This document shows positions 2,132-63,230 of a stretch of 64,000 bases of DNA, in pieces; position 1 is the stretch's first letter; the number at the start of each line of letters is the position of its first letter. The DNA comes from Branchiostoma floridae (taxonomy: Eukaryota > Chordata > Leptocardii > Amphioxiformes > Branchiostomatidae). The translations under genes were made by a program, and so were the position numbers. Below the pieces are notes generated by a model. That model was not told the origin of the DNA and searched no databases. It saw only the letters and a list, made by a program, of their open reading frames with translations. The stretch is from the NCBI RefSeq assembly GCF_000003815.2, contig NC_049991.1, positions 4,458,195 through 4,522,194 of the forward strand, in the 5' to 3' direction.

Positions 2132-2290
2132 AACATTCCACACACAGACACGTACACGCACATACACACATATATACCCACATACCGCACACACACAAAC
2201 GCACACACACACACATACCACGCACATACCACGCACATACCACGCACACACACACATACCGCACATACATACATACATACATACATACAG
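2132..2290. repeat. CA/CATA microsatellite, array unit 2
   Basis: Compound (CA)n with cacgcacatac and (catA)n tracts. Both strands are open in several frames, which produces spurious Cys/Val- or His/Thr-rich open frames. Confidence 0.95.
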
Positions 2291-3070
2291 TTGCAGTATT
2301 AATTTACAGTATACTGAACAAGACCTGAATGACACTTCACTTTATTTTACCATCAATACCTTTTCTTTCACTGGTGTTGGTACATGTGCATTTCTAATTG
2401 AAGTTCTTCCTGGATATTCAATTTAACATACAAGTTAGGCTCTTTTTTTAATAACAAGATCCCCTAATTAGTTATGCAAATTGGATCCTCATTGTTAAAC
2501 AAATACACATTATGACGATCTGTTTACCTCTTCATGAGTTACTAGTCCTCTGTTTCAAATTCTGTCACATAATCGTCGGCTGCAGTTTTCAAACAAGTCG
2601 CTATGGGGCCAAACGCCCATGACCTGTCCAACACTCAAAATGTCATGGACATAGCTCTTTCAGATGAATACAACTCAAACTTCTAAAAAACATTTTCGAC
2701 GATGACCTTCGTTTTCCCGGCTCCTACCTACCTACCAAATATCTTTATGATCTACGTAGAGCTTCTAGGGTTATGTTGATAACATACAAACATACACACT
2801 TACAGACACAACCCGCTGCAATACAGTGGGAGACCATCGGGAGGACCATTAACGAATTTGAACTTTAAGATCCATCCACAGCATCTTAAGTCATGTTGTT
2901 TTCAAACAAAAACACATGCGACTGCGGTCACTGATTTGCTTCTTGCTCAGTTGCCTGTACTAGGCGTTTTGTATGCCTCTATTTTTCGCCCGACAAGGTC
3001 ATGAACCGCCCTCAGGATTACCACTACTCAAGCTGCGCGTGCGCTTGGCCGAATCTGTCATAATTGGCTA

Positions 3071-3293
3071 ATACCGTAAATCCAGAGCTTTTGCCGTGGT
3101 TTTATGTTCGCGGTTTTCGCGTTGTTAATTTACCGCAAACTTAAAAACCACCGCGAACATTGTTTCCATGGTAGTAAGAGACTACAGTGCATAGACATAG
3201 TGCTACCGCAAACTTGAAACTGACGCAAACAGTCCTTTTCCCGCTACCGCGAAATTAAATCCCCGCAAACTTAGATGCATTTACAGTGGATCT
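3071..3293. mobile_element. MITE copy in array unit 2
   Basis: Near-identical to the element in unit 1, at the same relative site. The terminal motif reads ccgtaaatccag at the left and tgcatttacagtgg at the right, an imperfect terminal inverted repeat. Confidence 0.6.
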
Positions 3294-4321
3294 AACACCA
3301 CAGTTCTTTAAGCACTTGGCATGACATGACAATTAAACCGAAATGTTCGTCCCTGAAGCTGACCCTGGACTTGTTCTGAACCTACAGGTTACCGCGTGAT
3401 CATGTCTGAAATTTACCAAACTTTGCTATACTAAGTAACATGATGATGGTTTTAGCAAGATAGACCTATGTATGCTATGTATACACCCAGGAATGTCCTA
3501 ACCACAACTATGCCGCACTTCATGCCTGTAACAGTCACCACCTAGCCTCCAGGCTAGTGGTTGGATTTTGAATGACTTTCTCTACTATAGCTACAGTCGC
3601 GAGTTCAGAAGTTCACTCTGATTTTTAAAAAAAGAGATCAATTTCTCTGTCCTGTTCTGGTGTGGGATACCAATAGCTAGCCTAGCATGTGCTCTAGTGT
3701 AAACCTTTCTATTTAATACTCCTTACTCTTCAAATTAATACTTCTACTTTCTACTTAGTAATACAATTTCATAGTTTATGCTGTTATAGAAATGTGTCAT
3801 TACTGTATTGTTTTTGTTTTTTAAGTGTAAGTCTATGACTGCCTAAAAAGCATGTCAAGCTTCGACCTGAGTGTACACTCCTGGTATAAAAAATTAAAAT
3901 GTAAAAGTGAACAAATCCTTTTATCTCATCTCTGTGAATAAGATATAGCCAGTGTTACTCACCTGAGTGGTGCAGAGATGAATTTACGAGGCTGCAGGTA
4001 AATTCCACAGGTGAACTTGCATCGAGACCCATTATAGGCTACACGAACACTCATTGAGTGCAGTTATAAAAGACACGTCTACTAAGATAAACAAAACATC
4101 GACAAAAAGAGACGCCAGTCCTGCGCATGACTTGTGACCTTCTTGTTACTCCCTTCTTGTCCCTGAGGCTAGGTTTCAACCTGACCCAAGTAGGACATTA
4201 TCCAGTCTAACTACCATCACCAAATATTTGCTGTCATGTACCTTGAGAAGTCGCGAATCTTAATCTGACATTTGGTCGGTGCAAGTGTCTTGAATAGGTA
4301 TCTATACGGTGTACACAACAT

Positions 4322-4482
4322 TCCACACACAGACACGTACACACACACAAACACACACACATACCACGCACACACACACACACACACATGTACACACACA
4401 CACACACACACACCGTGAATAACAAAACAACACACACACACACACATACCACACATACCGCACATACACACACACATACAGT
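4322..4482. repeat. CA microsatellite, array unit 3
   Basis: Compound (CA)n tract at the same position in its unit as the one in unit 2. It is interrupted by a short non-CA stretch with gtgaataacaaaac. Confidence 0.95.
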
Positions 4483-5265
4483 TGCAGTATTAATTAACAG
4501 TATACTGAACAAGACCTGAATGTCACTAATCACTTTATTTTACCATCAATGGCATTTTTTTTCACTGGTGTTGGTACATGTGCAGAATATCTAATTGAAG
4601 TTCTGCCTGGATATTCAATTAAACATACAAGTTAGGCTTTTTTTTTAAGAACAAGATTCCCTAATTAGTTACGCAAATTAGATCCTCATTGTTAAACAAA
4701 TACACATTATGACGATCTGTTTACCTCTTCATGAGTTAATAGTACTCTGTTTCAAATTCTGTCACATAATCGGCTGCTGCAGTTTTCAAACAAGTCGATA
4801 TGGGGCAATGCCCCCGAGTGTTATCCACCACTCAAAATGTCATGGACATAGCTCTTCGAGATGAAAACAACTCAAACTTCTAAAAAACATTTTCGAAGTT
4901 GACCTTCGTTTTCCCGGCTCCTACCTACCTACCAAATATCTTTATGATCTACGTAGATCTTCTAGGGTTCTGTTGATAACATACAAACATACACACTTAC
5001 AGACACAACCCGCCTCAATACCGTCGAAGACCATCGGGAGGCCCATTAATGAATTTGAACTTTAAGATCCATCCACAGCATCTTAAGTCATGTTGTTTTC
5101 ATACAAAAACACATTCGACTGCAGTCACTGCTTTTTGCTTCTTGCTTAGTGGCCTGTCTCAGGCGTGTTGTATACCTCTATTCTTAGCCCGACAAGGTCA
5201 TGAACCGCCCTCAGGCTTACCACTACAAACTGCGCGTGCGCTTGGCCGAATCCGTCATAATTGGC

Positions 5266-5485
5266 TAATGCTGTAAATGCAGAAATTTCGGTGATGGTTT
5301 TATGTTCGCGGTTTTCACATTGCTAATTTACCGCAAACTTAAAACCACAGGTAACATTGTTTCCATGGCAGTAAGAGACTACAGTGAATGGTGCTACCGA
5401 GAACTTGAAACTGACGCAAACAGTCCTTTTTCCGCTACCGCGAAATTAAATCCCCGTAAACTTAGATGCATTTACAGTGGATCTA
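5266..5485. mobile_element. MITE copy in array unit 3
   Basis: Third copy at the same relative site, ending tgcatttacagtgg. Unit 4 has the flanks joined without it (near 7640), so insertion or loss happened during array growth. Confidence 0.6.
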
Positions 5486-6665
5486 ACGCCACTGTTCTTA
5501 GCGCTTGGCATGGTATGGAAATTAACCCGAAAGGTTCGTCCCTGAAGCTGACCCTGGACTTGTTCTGAACCTACAGGTTACCACGTGGTCAGGTCTGAAA
5601 TTCACCAAACTCTACTGTTCAAAGTAACATGATGACGGTTTCAGCAAGATAGACCTATGTACGCTAAACACCCAGGAATGTCCTGACCACAACTATGCCG
5701 CACTCCATACCTGTAACCGTCACCACCTAGCCTCCAGGCAAGTGGTTGGGTTTTGAATGTCTTACTTTTACAGTTACGAGTTCAGAAGTTCACTCTGATT
5801 TTTTTAAAAAAAGATCAACTTTCTCTGTCCTGTTCTGGTGTGGGATACCAATGGCTAGCCTAGCATGTGTTTTTACAATGAACTCCTTTCTTTAACGGGT
5901 AGGGGATTGTTAGAAACCGGGAATACATATTTAACTTACATATAAATACTCACAGAACAGCACATAGTACCCAGTAAGCTTTCTTTTGAAAAGCCCAGAC
6001 GTTTCTAACCCATTCTATGAGTCTGAGAGGGAGTACTACAATTATACACCATAACAGAAACATTTGAGCGCAAATTGATTTTGTAGTTAACTTGCTTATC
6101 AATACGATTTCATAGTTTATGTTGTTATAGAAATGTGTCATTACTGTATTGTTTTTGTTTTTTAAATGTAAGTCCATGATTGCTTCAAAAGCATGTCAAG
6201 CTTCGACCTGAGTGTACACTCCTGGTATAAAAAATGATAAAGTAAAAGTGAAGTAAACCTTTGATCTCATCCCTGTGAATAAGATGAAGCCAATGTTACT
6301 GACCTGAGTGGTGCAGAAATGAGCCCACGTGGCTGCAGGTAAATTCCAAAGGTGAATTGGCATCAAGACCCAAATTAGGCGACACGGACACTGAGGGCAG
6401 TTAGATAAATAAAAGACACGCTTGATAAACTGAACAGCATGGACGAAATGAGTCGCCAGTGCTGCGCATGACTAGTGACCTCCTTACAACCCTTTCTTTT
6501 CAATGAGGATAGGTTTGAACCTGACCCAAGTAGGGCATTATCCAGTCTAACTACCTACCCCAAATATTTGCTGTCATGTACCTGGAGAAGTTGCGAATGG
6601 ATCTTAATCTGACATTTGGTCAGTGGAAGGGTCTTACTAAGTATCGGTACCGTGTACACGACGTA

Positions 6666-6666
<1 letters not shown>

Positions 6667-6720
<54 letters not shown>

Positions 6721-6822
6721 CCCACATACCGCACACACACAATTGCAAACGCACACATACACGCGAAAACACCACCGACAAACACACACACACATACACA
6801 CATACCGCACACACACACACAC
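6667..6822. repeat. CA microsatellite, array unit 4
   Basis: A long pure (CA)n run at 6667-6713 is followed by interrupted CA/CATA text. It sits at the equivalent place in unit 4. Confidence 0.95.
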
Positions 6823-8251
6823 AGTTTCAGTATTTCCAATATACTGAACCAGACCTGAATGACACTTCATTTTACCATCAATAGTTTTTTCTTTCACTGG
6901 TGTTGGTACATGTGCAGAATATCTAATTGAAGTTCTGCCTAGATATCCAATTAAACATACAAGTTAGGCTATTTTTAAAACAACATTCCCTTATTAGTTA
7001 TGCAAATTAGATCCTCATTGTTTGCCAAATACACATTACGACGATCTTTTTACCTCTTCATGAGTTACTAGTCCTCTGTTTCAAATTCTGTCACATAATC
7101 GGCTGCTGCAGTTTTCAAACAAGTCGATATGGGGCAATGCCCACGTGTGCTATCCACCACTCATAATGTTACATGGACATAGCTCTTCCAGATAATTACA
7201 CCTCAAACTTCAATGATGTTCCGCTCCAGTTCCGTAAAAACATTTTCGAATGTGACATTCGTTTTCCCGATTCCAGCTCACCTACAAAATATCATTAGGA
7301 TCCACCCACAGCTTCTCGAGTATGCTGATAACATACAAACAAATACACTTACAGAGAGACACAACCCGCTGCAATACCGTGGGAGACCACCAGGAGTCCC
7401 ATTATTGAACTTGACTTCGAAGATACATCCACAGCATCTTAAGTGCAACTGCAGTCACTGCTTTGACTCTTGCTCAGTGGTCTGTATCAGGCGTTTTGTA
7501 TACCTCTATCTGATAGCCGGGTCGAGTCTTACCGTAACTGTTCTTCGCCCGATAAGGTCATGAACCCGAACAGTTTCGCCCTCAGGCTTAACACTACTCC
7601 AGCTGCGCGTGCGCTTGGCTGAATCCGCCATAATTGGTTGATAGTTCAAACGCCACTGTTCTTAGCTCTTGGCATGACATGGCAATTAACCCCAAAGATT
7701 TGTCCCTGAACGGCTGACCCTGGACTTGTTCTGAACCTACAGGTTACCACGTGATCATGTCTGAAATTCATCAAACTATGCCATTCTCAGTACTATGATG
7801 GTTTAGGCAAGATAGGTCTGGGCATATGTACGCTAAACACTTAGGAATGTCCTGACCACAACTATGCAGCACTCCATGCCTGTAACCGTCACCACCTAGC
7901 CTCCAGGCAAGTGGTTGGGTTTTGAATGTCTGTCTCTACAACAGTCGCGAGTTCAGAAGTTCACTCTGATTTAAAAAAAAAAGTCTGTCCTGATCTGGTG
8001 CAGGATACCAATGGCTAGCCTAGCATGTGCTCTAATGTAAACCTAACTACTCAAGTTGGGGTAGTCATTCTATATTTAGCCTTCCGGGAATCGACCTTCT
8101 TATTTCTTTTTTTTTTCATTTTTTTTATTCTGTGTTCTTAAGCTAGAACAACCCAACTCAGTGTAACCACACCGCTTTACAGTGGGGCCCTGGATTTATT
8201 ATTTTTAGGGGATTGCTAGAAACCGGGAATACATATCAAACTTACATATAC

Positions 8252-8351
8252 NNNNNNNNNNNNNNNNNNNNNNNNNNNNNNNNNNNNNNNNNNNNNNNNN
8301 NNNNNNNNNNNNNNNNNNNNNNNNNNNNNNNNNNNNNNNNNNNNNNNNNNN
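8252..8351. other. Assembly gap (100 N)
   Basis: A run of exactly 100 N inside array unit 4, a placeholder gap of unknown true size within the tandem array. Confidence 1.
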
Positions 8352-8931
8352 TAGTGAACTTCCTTAGTAATACAATTTCATAGATTATGCTGTTATAGAA
8401 ATGCGTCATTACTGTATTGTTATTGTTTTTTAAGTGTAAGTCCATGACTGCCTAAAAAGCATGTCAAGCTTCGACCTGAGTGCACACTCCTGGTATACAA
8501 AATGATAATGTAAAAGTGAACAAATCTTTTGATCTCATCTCTGTGAATAAGATATAGCCAGTGTTACTGACCTGAGTGGTGCAGAGACGAGGCTGCAGGT
8601 AAATTCCACAGGTGAACTTGCATCGAGACCCATTATAGGCTACACGAACACTCATTGAGTGCATTTATAAAAAGCTACGTATACTAAGATAAACAAAACA
8701 TCGACGAAAAGAGACGCCAGTGCTGCGCATGACTGGTGACCTTCTTGTTACTCCCTTCTTTTCCCTGAGGCTAGGTTTCAACCTGACCCATGTAGGGCCG
8801 GCATTATCCAGTCTAACTACCTTCCCCAAATATTTGCTGTCATGTACCTGGAGAAGTCGCGAATGGATCTTAATCTGACAATTGGTCGGTGCAAGTGTCT
8901 TAAATAGGTATCGATACGGTGTACACAACAT

Positions 8932-9075
8932 TCCACACACGGACACGTACACGCACACACACATATACTTAGTATATACCCACATACCGCACACACACAA
9001 ACGCACACACCACGCACACAAAATACCACACACACACACACACACACATACCGCACATACATACACACATACATT
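8932..9075. repeat. CA microsatellite, array unit 5
   Basis: Compound CA/CATA tract of the truncated fifth unit, ending close to the array boundary. Confidence 0.95.
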
Positions 9076-23137: not shown

Positions 23138-26041
23138 GTAAGAAATTCTCTCTTCTTTTTTTCCTTTCATTTTTGTACCACTGAAACGCCTGTGAAAAAC
23201 TAGTTGAAGACGTCATCGCTAATCTCCAAGCAGATCTTATCGTAGCTTAAGATAATATCAATAGCTGGCTGAGGAGTGAGTCCGGCTTAGGAGTGGACAT
23301 GTGTACATATTTTACAACAATATCCTGCATTCTACATGTAGGTCATGAAAATGTTGTCAGACCATACTTGAGGGGTTGGGGAGGCAGTAAAATGTCTGTG
23401 GAAATCAGCAGAAACGTTGTCCCACGGTAACCTGCCTTGTAGATATAAACTCTGTGGTTGATATTTTGTTGTTGCAGAGTCAATTTTGTTTGAAGGTGAC
23501 GGCGTGATAATGTCGACACTGCATATTAGAGTCGTTCGTGTTCGTTTGTGGTGTTTCTAAGTCGTTTGTGGTCGTTTGTGGTGTTTAGGCACACCCCAAC
23601 CTTGACAGGTAAGATTCAGATTTCTTGAGCCCAAAATTTCTTCTCACACCCAACATGTTGATCAAAAATGAAAGGGGCTGTCAAATGTATTGGGGCCAAT
23701 NNNNNNNNNNNNNNNNNNNNNNNNNNNNNNNNNNNNNNNNNNNNNNNNNNNNNNNNNNNNNNNNNNNNNNNNNNNNNNNNNNNNNNNNNNNNNNNNNNNN
23801 CTACGGCCCCCGGTATTTCCAGCGCTAAGTCAGCCGTCGCTTCTATCTTGTTTTCCACATTCTAACAAGTAACATGCATGTAACATACAAATTGAGGTAG
23901 AACAGAGTCCACAGCTTCGGAGCTAAGAAGAATTTTGTCGTTAGCAGTGTAAATGTATTTTACCATTGGGTTATAAACTGTACTTCCATGTGCGAGTACC
24001 TCCCTGACACTGCATCTGCATGTTAAATTTGGTACCAACTGCCCCTACGGCTTCAAAAAGCCAATGGTATTACATATACCTCTTATTGATTGCACTTATT
24101 ATCATTAGTCGAAGAAAAATAGATGTTTCATTTCAAGTATACGTTTACCATTGTATACGTTGACCAAATGTGTGTTCTATGAAAAATGTGAATGTATGTA
24201 TGTGTTGGCACCAAATATCAGCTGAACTGCCTGGGTTTGCCATGTATTACACAGGCTTTTTTTACTGATTTCTTTTTCTAGAGTGTGGCACGGTGTGTTA
24301 CTCCTCCTTGTAGTATGTGCACTCGTGCTAGAGACAGACGCAAGCTTCCTTCGCCGTCGAAGCTTCCTTCGCCGTCGAAGCTTCCTTCGCCGTCGAAGCA
24401 CTGGCCATGGTGAGAATATGACAGGCTATAAAAAAGTGAAAAGTCAAAGTGCCATAATTTTGCTTCTGTCAAGTGTGTCAGTCCCATCACAACTTTTGTT
24501 AGACATGTATCTTGAGACAATTCTGTGATCATTTCATCATTATTTTAGAATGTTGACACTGTTCGACGGATTACACGGATTTACAAAGATCAAAGATTGA
24601 CTATTCAAGTGGACGCTGTTAAACAGAACATATGAAGTCCACAGATAATCTAGAACTGTTTGCAGTATGAAGTTAGAAGCATTAGTGGGACGAAAGTGAC
24701 AATCTTCAAGACTTTAGTGTCCTATTGCTTTTGCAAGATTTTGAAGAATATATGGCTAGATAACTGTCAAATGGAAAGGTTTTTGTCAAATGTTGCCTAT
24801 ATATTTGATCTTATAAATCATTGATTGTACAGCCCAAGAGCAAATTCTTTTCGCCTCCCCCTTACAGTTCTAAAGTTAAGTGTTTGGTTTATTTTTATTA
24901 GGAACAGCGAGCTGCAATGAGCCAACGCGGAAACTAGCGAACGCCGTCTGGCCCTGCAGTCCGCCCTACAAACACGGATTCACCTGTTTATACAAATGCA
25001 GACAAGGTTACACCCTGGTCTCCGACAGCAACAAGAAGACCTGCTCCAATGGACACTGGACTGGAAAAGTTGTCTGTGAGAAAGGTAAGTACGTTATAAT
25101 CAGATTGGGATTATTTTGCAACAAAATATAATTTGACCTTCAATAAAAGAAGCGACTTGTTGAAGAGAGCCGGTCTGTAATGTAAAAGCAAGCAGAGACG
25201 ATATCAACGTCCTGTATTACATATAAAAAAGGCCTCCTGACAGCCTTGACAGTTAAGTATTATATCCTCTTTGTATAATTTGAATAAAGAACAGAAGATA
25301 ATGAACTGATGTGCAAGTCATATTCATGAATTAAATCTCATTTCGATATTTAATGAGAAACATTGATGAAGTGTCAATGGAAAGGGTTAACATCATTTGG
25401 TGAAGGTATGAGGCTGAAGACCGCGTAGCGCAGGTGACATTGGTGGGACCGCGTAGCACAGTGGCAGTGTGTTCGACTCGGAACCGATAGGTCGCGGGTT
25501 CGAATCCGGCTGCCGTGTTACCGATCTTGTGCCCTTGGGAAAGGCACTTTACACGGCTTTCCTCACTTAACTCAGGTGAAAATGAGTACCTAGCTTCGGC
25601 TAGGGCCGTCCCTAGGATAGGACGTTAAATGGAGGTCCCGTGTATGGGGAGAGCCACACCCCATGCACCCTATAGAACCCCCACACATGCGATGGTGCGG
25701 TGTGATGGGTCAAATCATGACAGTTTGGGGTGTTAGTAACCAAGTATGCACCAAGGGCTTAGCTGGCGAGGGATGAAGCATATAAAGATTCTTATGTCAC
25801 GTTTCATCTGCTGGAAAAAGAGCTTCCACACTTTCATTCATCTGCTGGTAAAAGCTTCCACACTTACATCTCTAAGACGCCCTTTCTCTTTAGTTACAGA
25901 AACTGCTTGACGCTTGAGAGTGCGGTCTTCGTTGTCTTCTTCCCACTGAAGACTACTGCAAAACGGACATTCTGATCATTCATTCCAGAAAGTGAGCATG
26001 ACTCCTCTGCAGGTGTTAAAATTGAAATTAAAATTTCATAG
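23133..26041 (+). CDS. Small secreted protein with SFLRRR repeats and one sushi (CCP) domain
   Basis: This is a four-exon model: 23133-23137, 24282-24409, 24902-25084, 25989-26041, 369 nt, 122 residues. It joins a signal peptide (MKVWHGVLLLLVVCALVL, likely cut after ETDA) to three exact SFLRRR hexapeptides, a short linker, and one sushi domain with six cysteines. Cys spacing and the closing W...VVC match the selectin-type CCP, which has an extra disulfide. It ends in a short acidic/serine tail. Splice phases agree at every junction, and the CCP exon is flanked by phase-1 introns, as usual for this domain. The role is unknown: secreted, perhaps processed at the RRR sites, or matrix or immune-related. 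The first three exons are well supported. The last exon is inferred only from an acceptor (cattccag), correct phase and an in-frame stop. Confidence 0.7.
23218..23310. repeat. Dispersed repeat, copy 2 (intronic)
   Basis: Related to the copy at 10865-10990, sharing 'aatctccaagcagatc' and the following 'agctggctg...ccggct' text. It lies in intron 1 of the sushi gene. Confidence 0.55.
23701..23800. other. Assembly gap (100 N)
   Basis: 100 N in intron 1 of the sushi-domain gene; a small exon could be hidden here. Confidence 1.
24282..24409 (+). CDS. Sushi gene exon 2: signal peptide and SFLRRR repeats
   Basis: The acceptor is ttctttttctag and the donor is catg/gtgaga. It encodes the hydrophobic signal segment, then three SFLRRR repeats, then STGH, and ends in phase 1. 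Confidence 0.75.
24343..24396 (+). repeat. Perfect 18-bp x 3 coding tandem repeat
   Basis: agcttccttcgccgtcga occurs three times with no difference, in frame, each encoding SFLRRR. The lack of even synonymous changes implies recent expansion or gene conversion. Confidence 0.97.
24902..25084 (+). CDS. Sushi gene exon 3: CCP domain
   Basis: A 183-nt symmetrical exon (phase 1 to phase 1) between ttattag and gtaagt. Six cysteines run from SCNEP through WPC, FTC, YKC and KTC to VVC, with the conserved GYTL and W before the last cysteine. A single sushi domain is complete within the exon. Confidence 0.85.
25443..25730 (+). mobile_element. tRNA-derived SINE in a sushi gene intron
   Basis: The tRNA-like head has ccgcgtagcacagtggc and the B box gggttcgaatcc. 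The shared body is 'cccttgggaaaggcactttacac...ctcaggtgaaaatgagtacctagcttcggctagggccgtccctaggataggacgtt'. This is the best-preserved copy of the family in the window. Confidence 0.85.
25989..26041 (+). CDS. Sushi gene exon 4 (putative last exon)
   Basis: The acceptor is cattccag. Joining in phase 1 gives ESEHDSSAGVKIEIKIS and then a stop. This is inferred from splice signal and phase alone; a further CCP exon could exist instead. Confidence 0.4.
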
Positions 26042-35300: not shown

Positions 35301-38300
35301 CTGTCAAGAATTTTCATTTAACTTCTGTCCGTCACAACCGCTATGACGTAACACTTCACTGCTAACGTAGATATAAAAATGGCGGGAAAATGGCTGCGTA
35401 CGTTCAATTTTGCCCATTCAGTCGAAGATCCGGGCTATTATGAAACGGTTCTTCACACTTTTACATGAGTTGTAGGTCACCAACAGAAATTCAAGATTGT
35501 TGTTGAATCATGTTCTTCTTGTGCCGTGAGCATGTGTAATTATGATCTATAAATTTGGCAATGAATGTGACAGTGTGTTCGTCCCACGACGAGCTGCCTA
35601 CCTCGAAAAAGATACTGAAAACTTTTGGCCTTGTTGTCTTCGAATGCATTGTTATCGATGCTTTGTAAATGATGTATTGGACACCTAGATGTCTGAAGTG
35701 TGCACAGCTCAGAAATAACTATTGTTGCATGTGTAGATCTCTTTAAGTTCCAGTATTTTTAATCTACCGGTATAAGTCTTACTACCGGTATTATGCCAAT
35801 GCATGTTACTCGTATGGGTGTGAACTGGTAAATTATTTTATCCAACCACATTAGAGAATGATGAATAATAGTCAGGAGAATCATATGCCGGAGAAATCAT
35901 ACAAAGGTACTAGCTAGCACTCCTGGTGATATTTTTAAACCACAGAGGCTGTTAGAAAACACTATTCAAACGCTATCCGTCGCTAAGCGACGGAACATAC
36001 AGTGCCATCGCGTGGATCGCAATTTCCTCAATTTGCGTACTTGTTATTCAAACGAAGCTATTGGAGTCATAGACTCCCGGGGGTTCTGTAACTGGCAACC
36101 CGAGTGGTGCATAGAGCCACAACGCTTCGTTTGCACAGCTAGCTCTAAAAATGGCCGCTCCACCATCGTTGACATCTTTGTCCTTTTCTCCTCAACAGGA
36201 CTCCTCGGCTGATGAAAGCATGCCTGAACTTGAAGACATCGCTAAGAAGGATACGGATAAACCCATCAATCTGACCCAAGACGAAAACGATGCTGCAGAC
36301 GACATCATCACTACAGAACATGGGAACGAGAACGGCTCAGAGAACGCAGCAGAACGCAAAGACGAGGAGAAGGTAGAAAATATTGATGGAGGAGAAGAAA
36401 AAGTGAACGAAGCTTATGAAGCGACAAAAGAGGAAGAAGAACAACGACAGGAGAAGGAATCTTGTTCTGATGTGGTGAAAGAGCAAAAAGAACCAAACGA
36501 GAACGATGGTACCGCAGAGATACGAGCAAAGAGTGAGGATGGGAAAGAGAGGGAAGAAAAGCAAACTGAAGCAAGCGCACCAGACCCCGTCGTCGCGAAG
36601 AAAGGCGACGGCACCACCAAGGTTCTGCGGAAGAAAAAGAAGAAGAAAACGCGCAGCCAGCTACCCAGTCTTTTCAGCTGCCCGTTCATGACGCCAGATA
36701 TGATGGAGCCGAGCGAAAGCCGGGGTCCCTGGCGGCGCAGAGAGCGAGGCAAGCCGAGAGAGCGAGTCAACGTTTTCCTCGCTGAAGGGAACAAGAGCAA
36801 GGAAGATCAGAAAGAAGACACGGTCACGGAGGTGACACAGAATGGGGAAGATCCGGAGAACGGAGGCAATGCAGAAGGAAAAAACAACTCAAGCCCCGCC
36901 CCAGAAAACGATGACGACGTTAAAAAGGTGTGTGTATGAATATATTTACGGTAACAACTCTCTTAAAACCTTGCCGTACTACCTGATGATTTCTAAGCGA
37001 ATAGGTCTTCTGATTCCTGTAGTGTCGCTCTCCTCTCACTCAGAGTACTTATTCTTCCTTACCACTACAAGAAAAGGGAATACATGAATCTAAATTGTAC
37101 CAATGCCGCATCAATGTACAAGTTGCCAAACACTGTATCCTCTACAGTTGTCGTGCAATAAAGTTCTTCTTCTATGTTGTCTTGAAGTACACACACTTCA
37201 GATACATGTATTTGGGATGTGTTCTCCTATATTTTGCTTTCTGTTGCTTTAGGAGGCTCGAGGGGAGATTTGACTTGTTACATACTATGCATTTGACATG
37301 AATTCGTTCACTTACTATTCATAAGTTTGTGTCATTTAAAATATTTCATGTTCCATGTTGTAAGAAGCACCAAGTATCGGCGAAAACATAACTTGTGCAC
37401 TACTTGAGTCCGCTGTAACTTTGTCTTTTTCCATCTTATCTCTATTTGATAATTTGTATTTTTTTATATATGTTTCTTTGAAAAATAAAGGTAAAAGAAG
37501 AGATTTACGAAGAGGCCCTCCCACAACGTAAGGTCTACAAGGAGGCTGAACGGTGTATGACAGACGAAGACAGGGCGGCCGAAAGGCGGTAAGAACAGAT
37601 TCTTAAGAGGAATAAGGCCGCATTGATTTGATTGTATGGATGACATTCACGCACGCATCAATTTTTGGCCGTTTTTAATCAAACGTTTTCGACCATACTT
37701 TAAATCGTGCAGAGCAGTAACAAAATGAACAAATATCATGATTATTGCCATGAATGACAAAAAATATCTAACAACGTTGTTTATGAAATGATTATCTGTG
37801 TAAAATAATGCAGATGGTGCATAAGGCGGCGCCAATCTCCCTTTCTGTAGCCCTTGGCCACACAAATTTTGAGCAATCACTACAGCAGCGGGCTAGTCCA
37901 TTGGCAGTGGCGTGTGTGTTCAACTCCCATACGTTTTCAAATGCTGAGTGCTAAGCAGAAAAAAAAAATCAGCAAATTAAAAGTTTTTCGCAAGGCTCGG
38001 ACGTGAAAACTCACGACCTATACACCTTTCTCACGCGGCGGACATCATAGATTGAAGACGAGGTCAATGAGGCAAACAGACAAAACATATTTTCTAAAAT
38101 CAGCTCCTATTTAGTTTTCCCCAGACCACACCAATTTTCACGATATAAGATCAAATAATACATATTATGGCCAGTGTTATGCAGTGAATTATATAGCAAT
38201 TTATACTCGCGTACTGATCCCATATTCCTTTACGAGATGCAAAATAAAAACATAATAATGCAAATATTTGACGGACATGCAGCCATTCTCTTATTGGTCA

Positions 38301-39175
38301 ATTTTCTAATTTCCATGCTATCATTGGTTGAACTACTAATTATGATGGGCAGTCTTTTGTTTGCCTCATTGGACTCGTTTTAGATCCTTCATGCCCGCTG
38401 CGTGAGAAAGGTGTATAGCTACCGAATGCAAGCAGGGTTGGACAAGTTTTTTTTTTTTTTTTCTATTTGCTTTTTGCTTTTTGGACAGACGAGGACGATG
38501 TGGCACTGCACTCAAGTTTTGTAACAATGCCACATACACGGTACAGACAGAAGGAAAGTCGTGTAAAGTGCCTTTCCCAAGGGCACAACTTCGGGGGCAC
38601 GGTGGGAATCGAACTCAGGACCCATAGATTCCGAGCCGAACGCTCTACCAGTTACGCCACGCCCGACGCCACAAGGTTGGACAAGTTCACTATAGCCCCA
38701 TTGTCTGGGGCAAGTGGAAGTGCTGATCAGACAACCGCATGTTCTACCCCACTTGTCCGATCGGGCAAGTAAGAATTTTCCATGAGAGAGATTTTGATAT
38801 ACTTGTTATCTTTCACAGTCATAGCATTGGTCAACACAGAAAAATAGAGCTAACAATAAAAAATTCCCATTGAAATACAAATGACAAATGTCCGGACAAG
38901 TGAAAAGTTAGTTTATGCAAGTAAATTTTCTATGTACTTGCCCGATAGGACAAGTGAATTTTAGAAAACTTGTCCGAACCCTGGCAAGGCTAAAATTTCA
39001 CCAACACTGTACCGGTATGTGGAACTAGTTTTTATGAAAAAGATGCGTTTCTATTTCCAGGATTCAGCAGGAGCAACTGGCCGCCATCTTTAAATTGATG
39101 CAAGACAATGAGGACAAATTCGGCGTCCAGTCGTACGATGACGTCGAGGAACAGATGAAGTTATACAAGACGTAA
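29080..39175 (+). CDS. MXRA7: MXRA7 orthologue (matrix-remodelling-associated protein 7)
   Basis: The four exons are 29080-29394, 36199-36927, 37491-37588 and 39061-39175, totalling 418 residues; the human protein is about half this length. Exon 1 encodes a short acidic N-terminus, one hydrophobic membrane segment (about residues 10-35, FVYSFSVLWICIFTTVTILA), and an acidic stretch. Exon 2 is very rich in Glu, Asp and Lys and contains a poly-lysine run (LRKKKKKKTR) that could be a nuclear signal or membrane-proximal basic patch. The C-terminus is diagnostic: QEQLAAIFKLMQDN...DDVEEQMKLY closely matches the human MXRA7 end. All splice phases agree. The molecular function of the family is poorly defined; the name comes from co-expression with matrix genes. 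It is convergent with MAD1L1. The family assignment is confident; the long middle exon is lineage-specific. Confidence 0.9.
29395..30350 (+). other. MXRA7 intron 1, first part
   Basis: AT-rich intron sequence with no exon or transposon end that I can support. Confidence 0.5.
30352..31030. mobile_element. Foldback DNA element interrupted by an assembly gap
   Basis: The left end ataccccctcacattaggcg and the right end ...cgcgcctaatggtagggggta are inverted repeats. Inside the left part, aggaggcatgaccctga is inverted as tcagggtcatgcctcct. The centre is lost in the N run. Confidence 0.7.
30488..30969. other. Assembly gap (482 N)
   Basis: A gap of estimated size inside the foldback element in MXRA7 intron 1. 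Confidence 1.
31130..31290. repeat. Dispersed repeat family R1, partial copy
   Basis: It shares 'ctgtgaccacatgtgac...catccctag..aatcagaattt...gaggatctg' with the copies at 44,165, 57,765 and 62,985. Confidence 0.6.
32005..32205 (+). mobile_element. tRNA-derived SINE in MXRA7 intron 1
   Basis: B-box-like text (tgtgttcgaatcttg) is followed by the shared SINE body, ending 'ggccgtccctcggataggac...gtcccgtg'. Confidence 0.8.
32470..32782. mobile_element. Foldback MITE, 313 bp
   Basis: The terminal inverted repeat is about 28 bp (taaggcggggtcacac on the left, gtgtgaccccaccttta on the right). Internal inverted pairs (ggctccacaggtc/gacctgtggagcc; aacatgtcagacgagttagc/gctaactcatctggcatgtt) let nearly the whole element fold on itself. 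There is no coding capacity. Confidence 0.85.
32848..32936 (+). mobile_element. tRNA-like sequence (SINE head)
   Basis: It has an A-box-like tagctcaattggtgg and a B-box-like ccggttcaaatt, but no good acceptor stem. Probably a degenerate tRNA-derived SINE. Confidence 0.45.
32937..32980. repeat. Short perfect-arm palindrome
   Basis: ggacattaccctgt and acagggtaatgtcc are inverted around a 10-14-nt centre. Confidence 0.8.
33000..33835. other. MXRA7 intron 1: no recognised gene
   Basis: Open frames exist on both strands (about 33,013-33,411 plus; 33,241-33,474 minus), without recognisable domains or splice support. A hairpin lies at 33,475-33,504 (ggaggtttta/taaaacctcc) and a (TA)n run at 33,603-33,620. 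Confidence 0.4.
33837..34000. mobile_element. Partial copy of the 'cacgcggcggacat' MITE
   Basis: It shares cacgcggcggacacgatag, 'gaggcaaacaagagactgtccatcat' and 'caaccaatgatagcatg' with the complete element at 38,018-38,418. Confidence 0.65.
34005..35340. other. MXRA7 intron 1: AT-rich, no gene seen
   Basis: No splice-bounded open frame, RNA gene or transposon end is apparent. Confidence 0.5.
35342..35400 (+). promoter_or_regulatory. Possible internal MXRA7 promoter
   Basis: A CRE-like tgacgtaa (35344-35351), a TATA-like atataaaa (35371-35378) and an E2F-like tggcgggaaa (35380-35389) lie within 46 bp. This is about 0.8 kb upstream of an ATG in good context at 36,151 that is in frame with MXRA7 exon 2. 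Confidence 0.35.
36151..36198 (+). CDS. MXRA7: Alternative MXRA7 N-terminus (upstream extension of exon 2)
   Basis: ATGGCCGCTCC opens in a strong context (aaaaATGG). Its frame runs without a stop through the exon 2 acceptor into exon 2. It would give 16 residues (MAAPPSLTSLSFSPQQ) in place of the membrane exon, so a soluble isoform. Confidence 0.35.
36199..36927 (+). CDS. MXRA7: MXRA7 exon 2: acidic/lysine-rich
   Basis: 243 codons, phase 0 to phase 0, between ctcaacag and gtgtgt. Mostly Glu, Lys, Asp and Asn, so probably disordered, with a K6 run near the middle and an Arg-rich patch (WRRRERGKPRER). Antisense open frames here are shadows. Confidence 0.85.
37491..37588 (+). CDS. MXRA7: MXRA7 exon 3
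   Basis: 98 nt, phase 0 to phase 2, between aaaataaag and gtaaga. It encodes KEEIYEEALPQRKVYKEAER and the charged helix leading into the conserved C-terminal motif. Confidence 0.9.
37795..37960 (-). mobile_element. Dispersed SINE-like repeat R2, copy 1
   Basis: It shares 'gatggtgcataaggc...ccaatctccctttctg...ggccacac...actacagcag..ggctagtcca' with the copies near 51,520 and 59,315. The orientation was assigned from the likely head-to-tail order and is uncertain. Confidence 0.6.
38018..38418. mobile_element. MITE with tatacacctttctcacgc terminal inverted repeats
   Basis: The left end ctatacacctttctcacg and the right end cgtgagaaaggtgtatag are perfect inverted repeats about 401 bp apart. The interior is AT-rich and non-coding. 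It lies in MXRA7 intron 3. Confidence 0.85.
38545..38672 (-). mobile_element. tRNA-derived SINE, reverse orientation
   Basis: The reverse complement reads as a tRNA-like head (gcgtaactggtagagcg, B box gagttcgattccc) and then 'ttgggaaaggcactttacac'. Same family as the copy at 11,605. Confidence 0.8.
38673..38983. mobile_element. hAT-like MITE, ggttggacaagt family
   Basis: The ends ggttggacaagt and acttgtccgaaccctg are inverted. The interior matches the copy at 51,744-52,078 throughout. The left terminus is damaged where it abuts the SINE. Confidence 0.75.
39061..39175 (+). CDS. MXRA7: MXRA7 exon 4: conserved C-terminus and stop
   Basis: Follows the acceptor tatttccag. It encodes IQQEQLAAIFKLMQDNEDKF...EEQMKLYKT and TAA, the most conserved part of the family. 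Confidence 0.95.
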
Positions 39176-43910: not shown

Positions 43911-44069
43911 TCAAGCTATGGTCTGCTGACTGAAGAGGTCAAGGGTCAGGGCACTGAGGAATGCTGGGATAGAGTGCTGGGTCTTCAGGTGGAGGTCCAC
44001 TAGCATCATCACAGCCTGGGAGTTGGAGAACTCAGTCTCCAGGAGCTGCAGCTCCCCTCCTGGCACCAT
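43911..44069 (-). CDS. MAD1L1: MAD1L1 exon 16: C-terminus
   Basis: 53 codons including TGA, after the acceptor aattccag. It encodes [12 protein letters not shown]...[20 protein letters not shown], the end of the RWD fold. Confidence 0.97.
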
Positions 44070-47000
44070 CTGGAATTGCAGGCAGTAGAGGGATGAGAAA
44101 ACTACATGAGACCACAGCAAATTTTATGGATGACATCCTTTGCAAACTACGATTGTAGATATAGGCAGATAGGGCAGATATATATAGGCGCCACTATTGT
44201 AGGGGAGTCCAGGAGCATCCTTCCATGGTGCAGAATTTACGAGAATTTTAAGTTAAAATGGTACATTCTAAGGCATCCTGAGGGGCAAAATTACTGTGAG
44301 AGTACTAGTGGTATCCCTGATCAATCAGAATTCCATACTTGTCCGAGGATCTGCTCCCCAATGTGGGGACATTTAGTGCGTCCAATGTCTTGTTATTTTA
44401 AGAAAAGCTCGTCCAAATGGCACCTGGACGCATGCATGGCTAACAGCCTGCTACATTGTAATACACAACAGATCTTTCAAGCGGGGAAGTTTTGTTTAGG
44501 CGTGAACCTGTACCTAAACTGGTACGTAATGTTATGTTTAGGTACGCAGCCCTAACACAAGTCTTAACAGGGCCTAAAGACCCTACCTGGAACATAAGGC
44601 AGTCCTCCTGCCTCTCAGTATACATGGACATGAGTTTGTAGTTGTTGTCCTTCACCACGTCCACCTTGTACCCCAGCAGCACTTAGTAACAGGCCTAATG
44701 CCCTAGTCTTAACATGACCTAAAGGCTTGGATCTGAAGACCCTACCTGGAACATTAGACAGTCCTCCTGCCTCTCGGCATACATGGACATGAGTTTGTAG
44801 TTGTTGTCCTTCACCACGTCCACCTTGTACCCCAGCAGCACTTAGTAACAGGCCTAATGCCCTAGTCTTAACATGACCTAAAGGCTTGGATCTGAAGACC
44901 CTACCTGGAACATTAGACAGTCCTCCTGCCTCTCGGCATACATGGACATGAGTTTGTAGTTGTTGTCCTTCACTACGTCCACCTTGTACCCCAGCAGCAC
45001 TTAGTAACAGGCCTAATGCCCTAGTCTTAACATGACCTAAAGGCTTGGATCTGAAGACCCTACCTGGAACATTAGACAGTCCTCCTGCCTCTCGGCATAC
45101 ATGGACATGAGTTTGTAGTTGTTGTCCTTCACTACGTCCACCTTGTACCCCAGCAGCACTTAGTAACAGGCCTAATGCACAAGTCTTAACAACTGGCCTA
45201 AAGACTTGGATCTAAAGACCTTACCTGGAACATAAGGCAGTCCTCCTGCCTCTCGGCATACATGGACATGAGTTTGTAGTTGTTGTCCTTCACCACGTCC
45301 ACCTTGTACCCCAGCAGCATGTAGCAGGCCTGGCGGAACTCGTGGATCTTCTGTTGAAACACCTCCTTAAGACGGGTGTTCTTCGTCTCAGCTGTCGTCA
45401 ACTGCTTCTTAAGATCTGGGGCAATAAAAAGTGAATTAGTACTTCTCAAGATCTGGGGCAATTAAAAGTGCATTTTCATGTTTCCCCTAAGGAAAATATA
45501 CCATTTTCACTTGTGCATTCTTCCTTACTTGTTTTTTCTTTGTTTCTTCTTTTTCTGTCATTTTTGGCAACGCTTCTGGGGAGAGTCTAGTTTTTGGTAA
45601 CACCTCTGTGGCAAGACTAAATGATATACAGTAGAAGCCATTTAATGGCACAATGGATTAAAGCACACATCTGTTAATTGCTTTGAATACCAAAATCCCA
45701 AACCACTGTGGTCCAGCTGGATAACTTGTCATTATTACACCACCCGGATAATTGCAAGAAATACAGTCTGGCAAAGCGGGTGTACAATCAAACGGCTTCT
45801 GCAGTAGTATTGTGTGCAAGTAGCTTGACAGAAATCAAATCACTTGGAGGGAAATACTGTATCCTGATTTTTTTTTTTGAAATGTCGCATTTCTAGTCTT
45901 CAAGTTGCAGTACGTTTAGGTTGGTTACAGTTTTTGAAAATACTGATGTTAATTACAAAGTAGGAAGAAAATGGAGTTCTCGCAGTGGTCTTAATTTTCC
46001 ATTTGAAACAAGAGGTAGTGAGAATGAAAACAAAGACAAACAAACTTTGCAGTGGTTATAGGTTTGAGGTGAAGAGCTCACTGCAAAAATAGAAGAAAAA
46101 ATCATTCAACCTTCCATTTCCTTGCTGGAGGGAGTCTGCAGTATGCTGGCCGTCACGTCGGCGGCGACCCCTTCCTCTGCCGCTCTTAGTCGCTGCCGAA
46201 GTTTCTCGCACTCTTCGCGTAGTTTCTCCAGCTCCTCCTGTCTGTGCTGTCTGCGGAGCGCCGTAGGGTTCAGCCCAAAGTGCACAACTTTTGTCTTGGT
46301 GGGGTCAAAGTCTCCCTAGAAGAATGAAGAACAGATTCATAAAATTATATTACACAAAATTATCAAGATTATCTTTTTGCCGGTGCGAGAGAAGCCGTTC
46401 GTTCAACCGTTCAACGGTTTGGTTTGCATGGATGCATGCATGGATCGGTGAATTTAACCAAACTTTTCTTATAGCCCTTCTATACGCACGATTACGCAAT
46501 GGAGTTAGCGTGGCCGAGCGGTCTACGCGCTGGGTGGATATAGGGATTCGCTTTTGCAGCCGTGGATCGTGGGTTCGAACCCCACTTGTAACAATTTTTT
46601 TCTTTGTTAGACTACTCTCATGTAGTGTTTTTTTTAATAGAAGAAAGACCAATTCAGTAATTTGATGTTTAAAAACTCTTTTTTCGTGTGATTTTGTTTA
46701 ACATCCAGGCTTTTTCCAAAATACGCACCGGCCAGCTTTTTTCAGAAGCTTTCTTGTTTCAGAAGCTTTCTTGCTTAATATAGAATATTCAACACTAGGG
46801 ATGGGTACCGGTACAGAAAATTCAAGTCCAGATCTGGTTCAGATCCAAAGAATCAGGTCCCGGTCCGGACCTAATTCAGTATGTCAATGGACAATACTCG
46901 GAACAATGGTCAATTCCGCTACAAAGAAATCTGTTTGATTTGGGGCCGTTTCAAAAAAAGATTTCAACCATGATACTAAAAACTGCAGAAAGCAGCTGCC

Positions 47001-53000: not shown

Positions 53001-56000
53001 GTTCTGTTCCAGCAGTTTCTTGTTCTCCTTCTCCAGCTGTTCGTACCTGGCCAGTCGTGTCTTCATCAGTTTGGCCATCGCAGCTGACTCCTGCACCTGG
53101 CTCAGCTGTAGCTCAAGTTCCTGGAAAAAATGAAAGCACATGAAATTAAAACACCACCTGTTCTCTTGTGGCTATTATAATTTTACATATGTTTATACCC
53201 TATGTTTAGTCACTTAAGCCTAGTCCTGTTTTCATGTAGCTGTTTGAGGTACACATTCACCTGCCACCTCTCAATACAGCTGCACCTTCACCTGCCCTCT
53301 CCTTACACAGCTGCACCTGCCCTTTCCCTGAACAGCTGCACTTACACCTGCCCCCTCACAACACAGCTTCGCCACACCTGCCCTCTCCTCAGTCCATAAT
53401 TGTAACTGCTCCTTGCCCACACAGCTGTACTTGCACCTGCCTTCTCTTCATATAACTGCACCTGCTCCCTAACCACACAATCCACAGCTGTAGTTGCACC
53501 TGCCTTCTCTTCATATAACTGCACCTGCTCCTTAACCACACAATACACAGCTGTAGTTGCACCTGCCTTCTCCACACATAACAGCACCTGCTCCTTAACC
53601 ACACAATACACAGCTGCACCTGCACCTGACCCCTCCGAAGACAGCTGCACCTGCCCTCTTCCAACACAGCTGTACCTGCACCTGCTCTCTCCCCACATAC
53701 TAGTAACTGCACTTGCTCCCTGCCCACACAGCTGTACTTACACCTGCCTTCTCCACACATAACAGCACCTACATGCTGCCCATACAGCTGCAGCTGCACA
53801 CCCCCCCTCCCCACCTGCCTTACCTTGACCTTGTGTTCAGCTGTCACAGCCCTGATCCTGTCCTCCTGCAGCTGCTGCACCTGCTCCAGCCGCGCCTGCG
53901 CCTGTCCCCGGTGATGCTGCACCTGTTGCTGTGCCTCTGCCAGCTCACTGTCACTCATCTCTAGTTCTGCTTCAAGTCTTAGTTTGGGAGAAAGAACATG
54001 ATTGTGTCATTGGATGTCTGACTTGTGACAAACCATTTCATTGGTCCACAGCCATGTATGGTTCATCAATATCTATTTCATCCTATGTTTAGCTGTCACT
54101 AGTCTAGTCCTATTTCTTGTATCGTAGCTGATTTGCACCTGTTTCAGCTGCACATTCACCTGCATTCTCTTCACACAGCTGCACACACACCTGTCTTCTA
54201 GTGCCTACTACACTGCCATGCCATCTGTCTATTTATATCTATCTACTTCTTTATGAATCGTTAGGGAGGTCCCTAGAGTTTATCTTATTAACTGTACTTC
54301 TGGAGTACTCATTTAATACACATAAAAAGTATAATTCTGAATAAAAAGTTTCTCAAACTCACCTTTTGACCTGGTTGCGTAAGCTGGATATCTGGCTTCT
54401 GGACCCTTCCCTCAGCTGTGAACACAAGTAACAACATCGCTTATTTTGATAAAGATACATGTACATGTATATGCAAAGTTGGACAAGCGGATACACAAGA
54501 AATTAAGTCTTTTTTTTTCAAAATCTGCAAATAAAAAGGTTGCCTTCATTATAAAATAGAAGTGGTCAGGAAGGTTATTACAAATGGCTTAACACACAGT
54601 ATCACAGTATACCAGTGGGAGTACGGAACAATAGGTTCTTCAATTTTGGTCTTTCACATCTTCTTTAAAATTTTTACTTTGGAATCATCTTTTGATTGGC
54701 AGCTTTTTAAAGACATCATTATCCTATTTTCCATAAATTTTTGCAACTTACAGCAGAATGTTTCCTCTTTTTGAAGCTGCTTTGTATGATTTACTAGCCT
54801 NNNNNNNNNNNNNNNNNNNNNNNNNNNNNNNNNNNNNNNNNNNNNNNNNNNNNNNNNNNNNNNNNNNNNNNNNNNNNNNNNNNNNNNNNNNNNNNNNNNN
54901 ATTGGAACGATCGGTCCTTACCTCACTAATTCGGGAAAGATAGAAGTAGTGTTCCGTTCGATTACGAACTGTAAACATGATTCTGTGTGTTCGATTTCCA
55001 CCTTGGTGGTGCTTTGCGAAGGGGGCTTGGAGCCAACAGCCAATCAGAAATCGCGCACATAAAGGGTGCGAATATTCAAATGCCGATCGTTCCAATGCTA
55101 ACGAATGCCAGACGTACTGGCAGGAGCAGAGCGACCAACGCACAGTACGGCTGGATTCCAGGCTATGATTTACTGCATGGTTTAATTTCTTTTTGAAACT
55201 GAAGAAAATTGATGTGTGCACTGATGTTATACATATAATTGAATCAATTTAGGCTAACTTGGTGGCCTAAAAAGCAAGCATTTAAAAGGCTGTTTCCTGT
55301 CTATCTTTATGTTCTAAAAAGTCCACCCCTCCCACATAATGGTACATCCCACCTCCTCTAACTCTGCTTGGATGTGCAGCTTCTCCCGTTGCAATCCCAT
55401 GATCCTCTTCTCCGACTGGGTCTTAATCGTTGTCAGTTTTTTCCGCTCTTCTGCGAGCTCTTCTTTCGCTTGTTTCTCCTCCCTCTCCAGGAACTCCAGT
55501 TTGTGCCGGAGGTCGTTAACCTGTTCTAGGTCACGCTGAATTTGCGAGAGATGAAAAAAGGGACTTTCAAAACCTGGTTGTTATATACAGTAGAAGTCAG
55601 TTAATTGCACACTGGATAACTGCACACTTCTGTTAATTGTACGGAATCCCAAAGTCCCGTAGCGATGCGGTCCAGTTGAATAACTCGAGAGGCAATCTAG
55701 CCAATCTAGGTGATGAAACAGTGTAATAGTTCAGCTAACATGATACAAATGCATAGTCCAGTGGTTATATAAATGGAGACTAATAAAGGGTTAATGCCCC
55801 GCCCCGAGGTGTATATGGTGAGATAATCCCTGNNNNNNNNNNNNNNNNNNNNNNNNNNNNNNNNNNNNNNNNNNNNNNNNNNNNNNNNNNNNNNNNNNNN
55901 NNNNNNNNNNNNNNNNNNNNNNNNNNNNNNNNCACCATATACACCGAGGAAAAGGCGGGGCATTAACGTTATTATCATATAGCCTATTCAACTGACACAT

Positions 56001-62464: not shown

Positions 62465-62935
62465 TCAATCTCGGTCTTGTTTGATACGCAAGTCGCTCGG
62501 ATGCTCTTGCTCTCGAATGTCGACCTCCATGTCGCGGTGGTTCGAGTGGAGTAGCGCGACCGCCGCCTGGATATTTCCGTTGCTCTTCTGGAGCGTCGTG
62601 GCAAAGTTCTGGAGGGCCTCGTACTTTGTTCTCATGGCTCGGAGCTCGATTCTCATTTCCGTGTTTTCCCGCGTGAGCTTGTCGACCTCCGACTTCAGCA
62701 CGTGCTGCTGGCGCTCCAGCTCCTCCTTCTGCGTGAGCCGCTTGGTGCGGCAGCTGGCGGCGTACCCGCGGTTTTTCAGCGTCCGTCGCCGCTGCTTCAG
62801 CCGCATTATCTCCTCCTTCGAGAGCCCGCGCAACCGGCGATTCAACTCCCGGACGGTGAGCTGCACCAGTTCCATGTCGCTCAGGTGCAGGCCGTTATTT
62901 GGGCTCAGTTCCGGGTCCTCTGGCTCTTTCTTGAT
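62465..62935 (-). CDS. MAFK: Small Maf bZIP transcription factor, main coding exon (5' exon missing)
   Basis: 156 residues and TGA, starting at the acceptor gttttcctatcag with IKKEPED. This fits vertebrate VKREPG just after the short first coding exon. Next come the extended homology region ([20 protein letters not shown]), the basic region with the Maf-specific NRGYAASC and flanking Arg/Lys, and a leucine zipper of about five heptads ending in [12 protein letters not shown]. No acidic or proline-rich activation domain precedes them, so this is a small Maf (F/G/K type). Such proteins dimerise with CNC factors or each other on MARE/ARE sites. IKKE fits the SUMO consensus. Pre-duplication orthology to MAFF/G/K jointly is more likely than to MAFK alone; the symbol is nominal. 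The first exon with the ATG probably lies beyond the window. Confidence 0.95.
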
Positions 62936-62984
62936 CTGATAGGAAAACAACAAAAACAAATGACTTAGGATGATCTTTTTGCAG

Positions 62985-63230
62985 GCTTTTGGCTAGGATT
63001 TTATCACAGGGAGTCCAAATTTCTTGGCGAGTTGCGGTAAGTGACTATGTTCAGGGGAATCCACCTTCCATGGTGTTTTTTATAATTTTAAGTTAAAAAT
63101 GGTGCATTCTAAGGTATCCTGAGGGGCAAAATTACTGTCAGAGAGGTCTGCGTAGAAGACTATGACCACAAATGACCTCCTGGCATCCCTGGTCAGTGGT
63201 CAATCAGAATTTCATGCTTGTCAGTTACTG
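62985..63230. repeat. Dispersed repeat family R1 copy in the small Maf intron
   Basis: Core 'aatccaccttccatggtg...taagttaaaaatggtgcattctaaggtatcctgaggggcaaaattactgtcagag...catccctggtcag...aatcagaatttcatgcttgtc'. Confidence 0.75.

Follow-up and report, generated by a model that had tools for sequence, protein, structure and literature searches.

The MAD1 locus and a repeat array at the end of exon 15

The window analyzed here, a 64,000-nt stretch of Branchiostoma floridae DNA, carries a MAD1 gene on the minus strand, with 15 coding-exon peptides placed between positions 57656 and 43914. In a profile search, the joined exon peptides matched the Pfam MAD family (PF05557) with an E-value of 3e-119, covering positions 4-661 of 661, and the C-terminal part of the peptide matched it with an E-value of 1.6e-66. 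The joined products of exons 15 and 16 aligned end to end with the solved human MAD1 C-terminal domains 4dzo and 7b1f (E 6e-39). The Pfam match and this alignment confirm the gene's identity, which an earlier sequence-only reading of this DNA had proposed. The exons numbered 14 to 16 below would be coding exons 13 to 15 by located peptides and, judged by phase, a small MAD1 exon between 55353 and 53977 may be absent from the list of 15. The other MAD1 exons are intact-looking as far as read.

The last 95 nt of exon 15 recur four times on the minus strand, with starts at 45158, 44999, 44840 and 44681. In the direction of transcription, the exons, copies and spacers are:

46111..46315, minus strand: MAD1 exon 14, upstream of the array, with a phase 1 end at the donor AAG|GTTGAATG and a Pfam MAD match in its translation
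45415..45452, minus strand: strong acceptor, a tandem duplicate of the one at exon 15 and 37 nt upstream of it; an exon entered here would begin with base 45452
45225..45415, minus strand: MAD1 exon 15, 191 nt, encoding the RLK motif and the first part of the C-terminal domain's globular head
45159..45224, minus strand: 66-nt spacer between exon 15 and copy 1, the start of intron 15
45064..45158, minus strand: copy 1 of the 95 nt that end exon 15
45000..45063, minus strand: 64-nt intron unit after copy 1
44905..44999, minus strand: copy 2, identical to copy 1
44841..44904, minus strand: 64-nt intron unit after copy 2
44746..44840, minus strand: copy 3, with one difference from copies 1 and 2
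44682..44745, minus strand: 64-nt intron unit after copy 3
44587..44681, minus strand: copy 4, with two differences from exon 15, in one codon (GCC to ACT)
44523..44586, minus strand: shortened, diverged intron after copy 4, then unique intron; it holds AGGGCTGCGTAC, like exon 15's AGGCCTGCTAC
43911..44069, minus strand: MAD1 exon 16, the last exon, containing the stop codon

Tandem Repeats Finder (TRF) delimited the array at 44577-45319, with a period of 159, 4.7 copies, 97% matches and a score of 1370; this score is the highest of the 34 rows in the window, and the array is therefore not a product of chance. On the minus strand, the motif TGCTGCTGGGGTACAAGG is present five times, once in exon 15 (45319) and once in each copy (45158, 44999, 44840 and 44681). 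The sequence-only reading had described four units of 95 nt plus 64 nt at an exact 159-bp spacing. The four copies and the 159 bp between them stand, but the step from exon 15's own 95 nt to copy 1 measures 161 bp, and the spacers after exon 15 and copies 1-3 are 66, 64, 64 and 64 nt long. Nor does a 64-nt intron unit follow every copy, as had been claimed, because copy 4 is followed by a shorter, diverged version. With at least three head-to-tail units running across an exon-intron boundary, the array has the form of an exon-boundary tandem repeat.

All four copies are 95 nt long, free of indels and free of stop codons in the MAD1 frame, and their translations vary at a single A/T residue. 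Each ends in CAG|GTAGGG, and exon 15 ends in CAG|GTAAGG. Indels are present in the intron units of the array, and no N lies within it. When 63 residues of exon 15 were searched against all six frames of the 513-Mb genome, at least five matches were returned, match counts in this search being lower bounds, and all five are the exon and its four copies. The matches of the copies extend past the 95 nt into the leader, which in all four cases contains one TAG and one TAA.

Two further observations concern the array and its edges. A 198-codon open frame (stop to stop) at 44615-45211 on the minus strand spans most of the array in a frame other than that of MAD1 and ends in copy 4; it can run through the array, whose unit of 3 x 53 nt preserves the frame, and it is probably a by-product. 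At the other edge of exon 15, 26 nt at its acceptor (TTTT.ATTGCCCCAGATCTT.AGAAG) are found again 37 nt upstream, matching at 24 of 26 positions (45390-45467, minus strand). Both edges of exon 15 are therefore duplicated, the acceptor as well as the repeated 3' end. The upstream duplicate acceptor scores at the 99.7th percentile by the gene matrix and at the 98th by generic weights (both described below), and its use would bring in an in-frame stop.

Elsewhere in the window, a small-Maf-type bZIP gene lies at 62465-62992 on the minus strand (Pfam bZIP_Maf, E 1.2e-26), the same strand as MAD1, and the first MAD1 coding exon that was located lies about 5 kb downstream of it; MAFK and MAD1L1 are neighbours in human as well. 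An open frame at 24880-25131 (plus strand) encodes a Sushi/CCP domain (E 2.6e-06) after an apparent signal peptide. A tRNA-Pro-like sequence at 25446-25519 (plus strand) may be a tRNA-derived SINE, since the peptide SCALGKGTLH, encoded by an open frame that overlaps it, recurs in the open frame at 38366-38614. A 274-codon open frame at 36115-36939 (plus strand) is rich in Glu, Lys and Asp, and its 262 residues from the first Met had no Pfam match up to an E-value of 0.01. CA-rich blocks near 2142, 4324, 6667 and 8990 (span 2142-9074), about 2.2-2.3 kb apart and with similar flanking open frames, resemble a larger tandem repeat whose unit would be about 2.3 kb.

Reading frame, protein consequence and splice signals of the copies

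When exon 14 is joined in silico to any of the four copies and the copy to exon 16, the reading frame stays open to the normal stop and yields 152 amino acids from the start of exon 14, compared with 184 for the form with exon 15. Three claims of the sequence-only reading are thereby borne out: the copies keep the frame and the donor, their 95 nt being free of indels, open in the MAD1 frame and ending in CAG|GTAGGG; replacement of exon 15 by any copy gives an in-frame MAD1 shortened by 32 residues; and a copy added after exon 15 by its 95-nt entry brings an early stop in all four cases. All four copies thus show the frame-compatible replacement expected of mutually exclusive exons. The early stop falls 27-30 nt into the added copy and 65-68 nt before the last junction. 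Extending exon 15 to the donor of a copy also creates an early stop, in four of four cases and at the same place for any donor, in exons that would measure 352-829 nt, and skipping exon 15 outright creates one as well. Entered instead at TACAAG|GTGG, a copy would form a 78-nt exon in phase 0-0 that follows exon 15 in frame and contributes 26 residues; this applies to each of the four copies taken singly.

The alignment to human MAD1 places residue n of the query at human residue n+602 (the chain ends at Ala718), and the residues lost in the short form correspond to human 603-635. The RLK motif, which aligns with human 617-619, is indeed among them. In the human C-terminal domain, a long alpha1 helix forms the stem ahead of a four-stranded sheet, and the contacts of MAD1 with BUB1 include S610, R617-K619, Q627, F629 and R630, and also I643 and R650 (PMC8391104). 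Almost the whole of helix alpha1 would be missing from the predicted short form, and thus more than the RLK motif alone. For this reason, the earlier claim that it would keep the RWD fold is doubtful, as the lost segment comprises most of alpha1 together with several further BUB1 contacts. A structure model of exon 15 alone, computed with no alignment, was all helix (mean pLDDT 82.3, pTM 0.42); it contradicts the beta strands of the homologue and was rejected. A comparison of this model with the PDB gave no matches at E-values up to 10.

We scored splice acceptors with a matrix built from the 14 acceptors of the MAD1 gene, against a background of 982 other AGs, and with a second model that used generic weights. 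The acceptor of the copies, TTACTAAG|TG, scored -4.64 with the gene matrix, at the 43rd percentile of the 982 AGs, and at the 56th percentile with the generic weights. With each known acceptor left out of the matrix in turn, 13 of the 14 outscored it, and the sole exception, at 53977, has an uncertain boundary; by generic weights, all 14 lie above the copies, at the 70th percentile or higher. Exon 15's own acceptor reached the 95.5th percentile when left out, the 99.8th with the full matrix and the 99.7th with generic weights. The four lowest known acceptors have left-out percentiles of 37.5, 60.1, 69.1 and 70.6, and the MAD1 gene therefore tolerates weak sites. An AG is present in the exclusion zone (-15 to -3) of all four copies and of none of the 14 known acceptors. 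A branch-point-like YTNAY motif is absent from the scanned stretch before the copies, as it is for 4 of the 14 known acceptors. The description of the copy acceptor as pyrimidine-poor is mildly true, but its 10 pyrimidines out of 17 fall within the known range of 8-15. The 78-nt entry scored below the 95-nt entry, at the 20.6th percentile by the gene matrix and the 34th by generic weights.

The donors present a different picture from the acceptors, with nearly equal U1 duplex energies for the copies and exon 15 (-11.2 vs -11.5 kcal/mol). By sequence score, each copy therefore has a donor but an acceptor at the level of background. The proposed role of the copies as alternative exons is therefore weak: frame and donor agree with it, but the acceptor scores as an average AG and has another AG in its exclusion zone. 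Judged by these splice signals, alternative-exon use of the copies is unlikely. Pairing of the docking/selector kind between the intron unit of copy 1 and intron 14 showed no excess (90 of 100 shuffles were as good or better), nor did pairing between this unit and the rest of intron 15 (21 of 100 shuffles); not all clusters of mutually exclusive exons use such pairing. Folded by itself, the unit shows nothing remarkable (z -1.4). Recursive splicing was considered and rejected: the copy-end AG|GTAGGG scores at the 97.8-98.2th percentile by the gene matrix and the 87-93rd by generic weights, but the end of exon 15 reaches similar values, and an intron of about 1.2 kb is short.

Substitutions, origin of the array and rival explanations

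Among the copies and exon 15, there are 5 substitutions over the 95 nt, of which 4 are synonymous when one of the two changes in the ACT codon is taken as a replacement and the other as silent. Random change is expected to be synonymous in 19-26% of cases, and the probability of at least 4 of 5 is 0.006-0.018, in a test that was post hoc and that includes two changes in one codon. Consequently, a small chance of coding use remains. Substitution rates in exon and intron, compared between exon 15 and copy 1, show no significant constraint (3/95 vs 6/64, Fisher p 0.16), and an alternative count, with intron-side events counted by hand, gives the same outcome (5/95 vs 7/64, p 0.23). Unequal exchange that carried alleles of the working exon into the copies would give the same synonymous pattern.

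The relationships among the units bear on their origin. Copies 1 and 2 have no differences over 159 nt, copy 3 carries a single change relative to both, in its exon part, and copy 4 departs from exon 15 at 2 of 95 positions. The leader of copy 1 equals the flank after copy 4 as far as TTAGG.CTG, and its last 20 nt are identical ahead of all four copies. At the duplication edge, where the resemblance of AGGGCTGCGTAC to AGGCCTGCTAC also sits, exon 15 and the intron flank have AGGCCTGC-TAC/AGGGCTGCGTAC in common. Beyond the copy edge, the leader is similar to the exon (AGGCCTGTTAC/AGGCCTGCTAC), with 10 of 500 shuffles equally good, and this likeness makes the position of the break uncertain within about 12 nt.

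We consider it likely that the array is a recent and mostly silent tandem duplication, minisatellite-like in form, across the 3' boundary of MAD1 exon 15. The first duplicate may have arisen by unequal exchange or slippage between the imperfect short match of AGGCCTGCTAC in the exon to AGGGCTGCGTAC in the intron, and a later unequal exchange between the long repeats could have multiplied one middle copy into copies 1-3. A break inside exon 15 would have given each copy a good donor while leaving the exon's acceptor behind. With the acceptor lost, the copies would mostly be passed over and exon 15 would normally be joined to exon 16 as before. Occasional errors, in which a copy is added after exon 15 or exon 15 is extended to a downstream donor, would produce premature stops, and such aberrant splicing is expected to be low-level at most. 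As exons, the copies are probably used rarely or never, since each lacks a good splicing entry signal.

Several other explanations can be weighed against this one. That the copies are mutually exclusive alternatives to exon 15, providing a MAD1 that would lack the BUB1-binding RLK segment, agrees with the open frame and normal stop in all four cases, with the retained donors, with the four synonymous substitutions out of five and with spacers of 64-66 nt that would hinder the joining of neighbouring copies. We nevertheless judge it very unlikely: the copies' acceptor is at background level with an AG in its exclusion zone, exon 15's own acceptor scores far better, the copy 1 unit showed no docking/selector pairing, and the product would be without most of the C-terminal domain's alpha1 helix. 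A more elaborate version, in which the array is a copy-number-variable splicing switch that swaps exon 15 for a half-exon in some transcripts and the synonymous changes record selection on the frame, seems highly improbable. If it were true, the resulting MAD1 would keep its MAD2-binding part and would not be recruited by BUB1. An alternative form of the switch would use the TACAAG|GTGG entry to make 78-nt exons that add 26 residues per copy, at acceptor scores that are lower still. The copies might instead serve as poison exons or decoy donors, whose premature stops would lower MAD1 output and whose number could tune the gene. A premature stop far enough from the last junction likely triggers decay by the usual distance rule, and the stops at 65-68 nt would make decay likely; extension to any of the four donors also leads to a stop at one place, with near-equal U1 pairing. 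However, inclusion would depend on the same weak acceptor, and the extended exons would measure 352-829 nt, which makes this a quite unlikely reading.

Two explanations concern the sequence itself. The array could have been created by misassembly, or it could be one length variant of a polymorphic locus, a variant that many individuals lack. The window contains 882 N, hence the assembly is gapped, and copies 1-3 are nearly identical, as is the case where assemblers miscount. Yet three sequence classes (exon 15, copies 1-3 and copy 4) differ in both their exon and intron parts, the flanks are unique and no N falls inside the array, so that a pure artefact is hard to imagine, and we regard this explanation as unlikely. 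A tentative but credible alternative for the synonymous pattern is standing allelic variation, whereby the differences would have arisen in a working exon 15 and reached the copies by exchange between haplotypes. It accounts for the synonymous excess without any use of the copies, and fits with the mostly silent duplication that we favour. Lancelets are highly heterozygous, at about 2% in B. belcheri (PMC7417228; PMC12373286). Against it, parsimony with exon 15 and copy 4 as the reference puts the changes on the copies.

If the copies were used, the array would provide the spindle checkpoint with a natural separation-of-function switch, its strength set by repeat number. If they are unused, as we favour, it is a clear snapshot of how partial exon duplications arise, with copies that retain a donor, have no acceptor of their exon and stay silent. 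Gene prediction then calls for caution, because such copies are open and homologous and can be called as exons.

Comparison with known systems

We found no report of the MAD1 exon 15 array in the open-licence papers searched, nor a paper there on a MAD1 beta splice variant, and the MAD1L1 splicing papers found there do not seem to concern exon 15. A search for relatives in viral contigs gave 11 pattern matches, none of them confirmed. The structures PDB 4DZO and 7B1F provide a protein homologue of the exon 15 and 16 product, and their description (PMC8391104) concerns the protein.

Mutually exclusive tandem exons resemble the MAD1 array in that an exon and part of an intron are repeated, the frame is kept and the spacers are short (PMC9013439; PMC6071210), and a spacer that is too short is one known way to prevent the joining of two exons (PMC6071210). 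However, such exons tend to be of similar length, whereas the MAD1 array copies only the 3' half of its exon; in addition, its unit leaves out the exon's acceptor, and competing pairing was not found. Tandem exon copies that lack annotation may in some cases be expressed (PMC9013439), and this possibility is a reason for caution over the silent reading.

The array is also like the variable internal tandem repeats (minisatellites) at exon-intron boundaries, with tandem units across such a boundary and possible effects on splicing; these repeats can create alternative splicing, and unequal crossing-over and slippage are named as their cause (De Grassi and Ciccarelli 2009, PMC2812944). The repeats of that study are human, lie in primate-specific paralogs within segmental duplications and have units that average 30 bp, whereas the MAD1 unit measures 159 bp and, unlike those paralogs, all matches to exon 15 in the genome search fell at this one locus.
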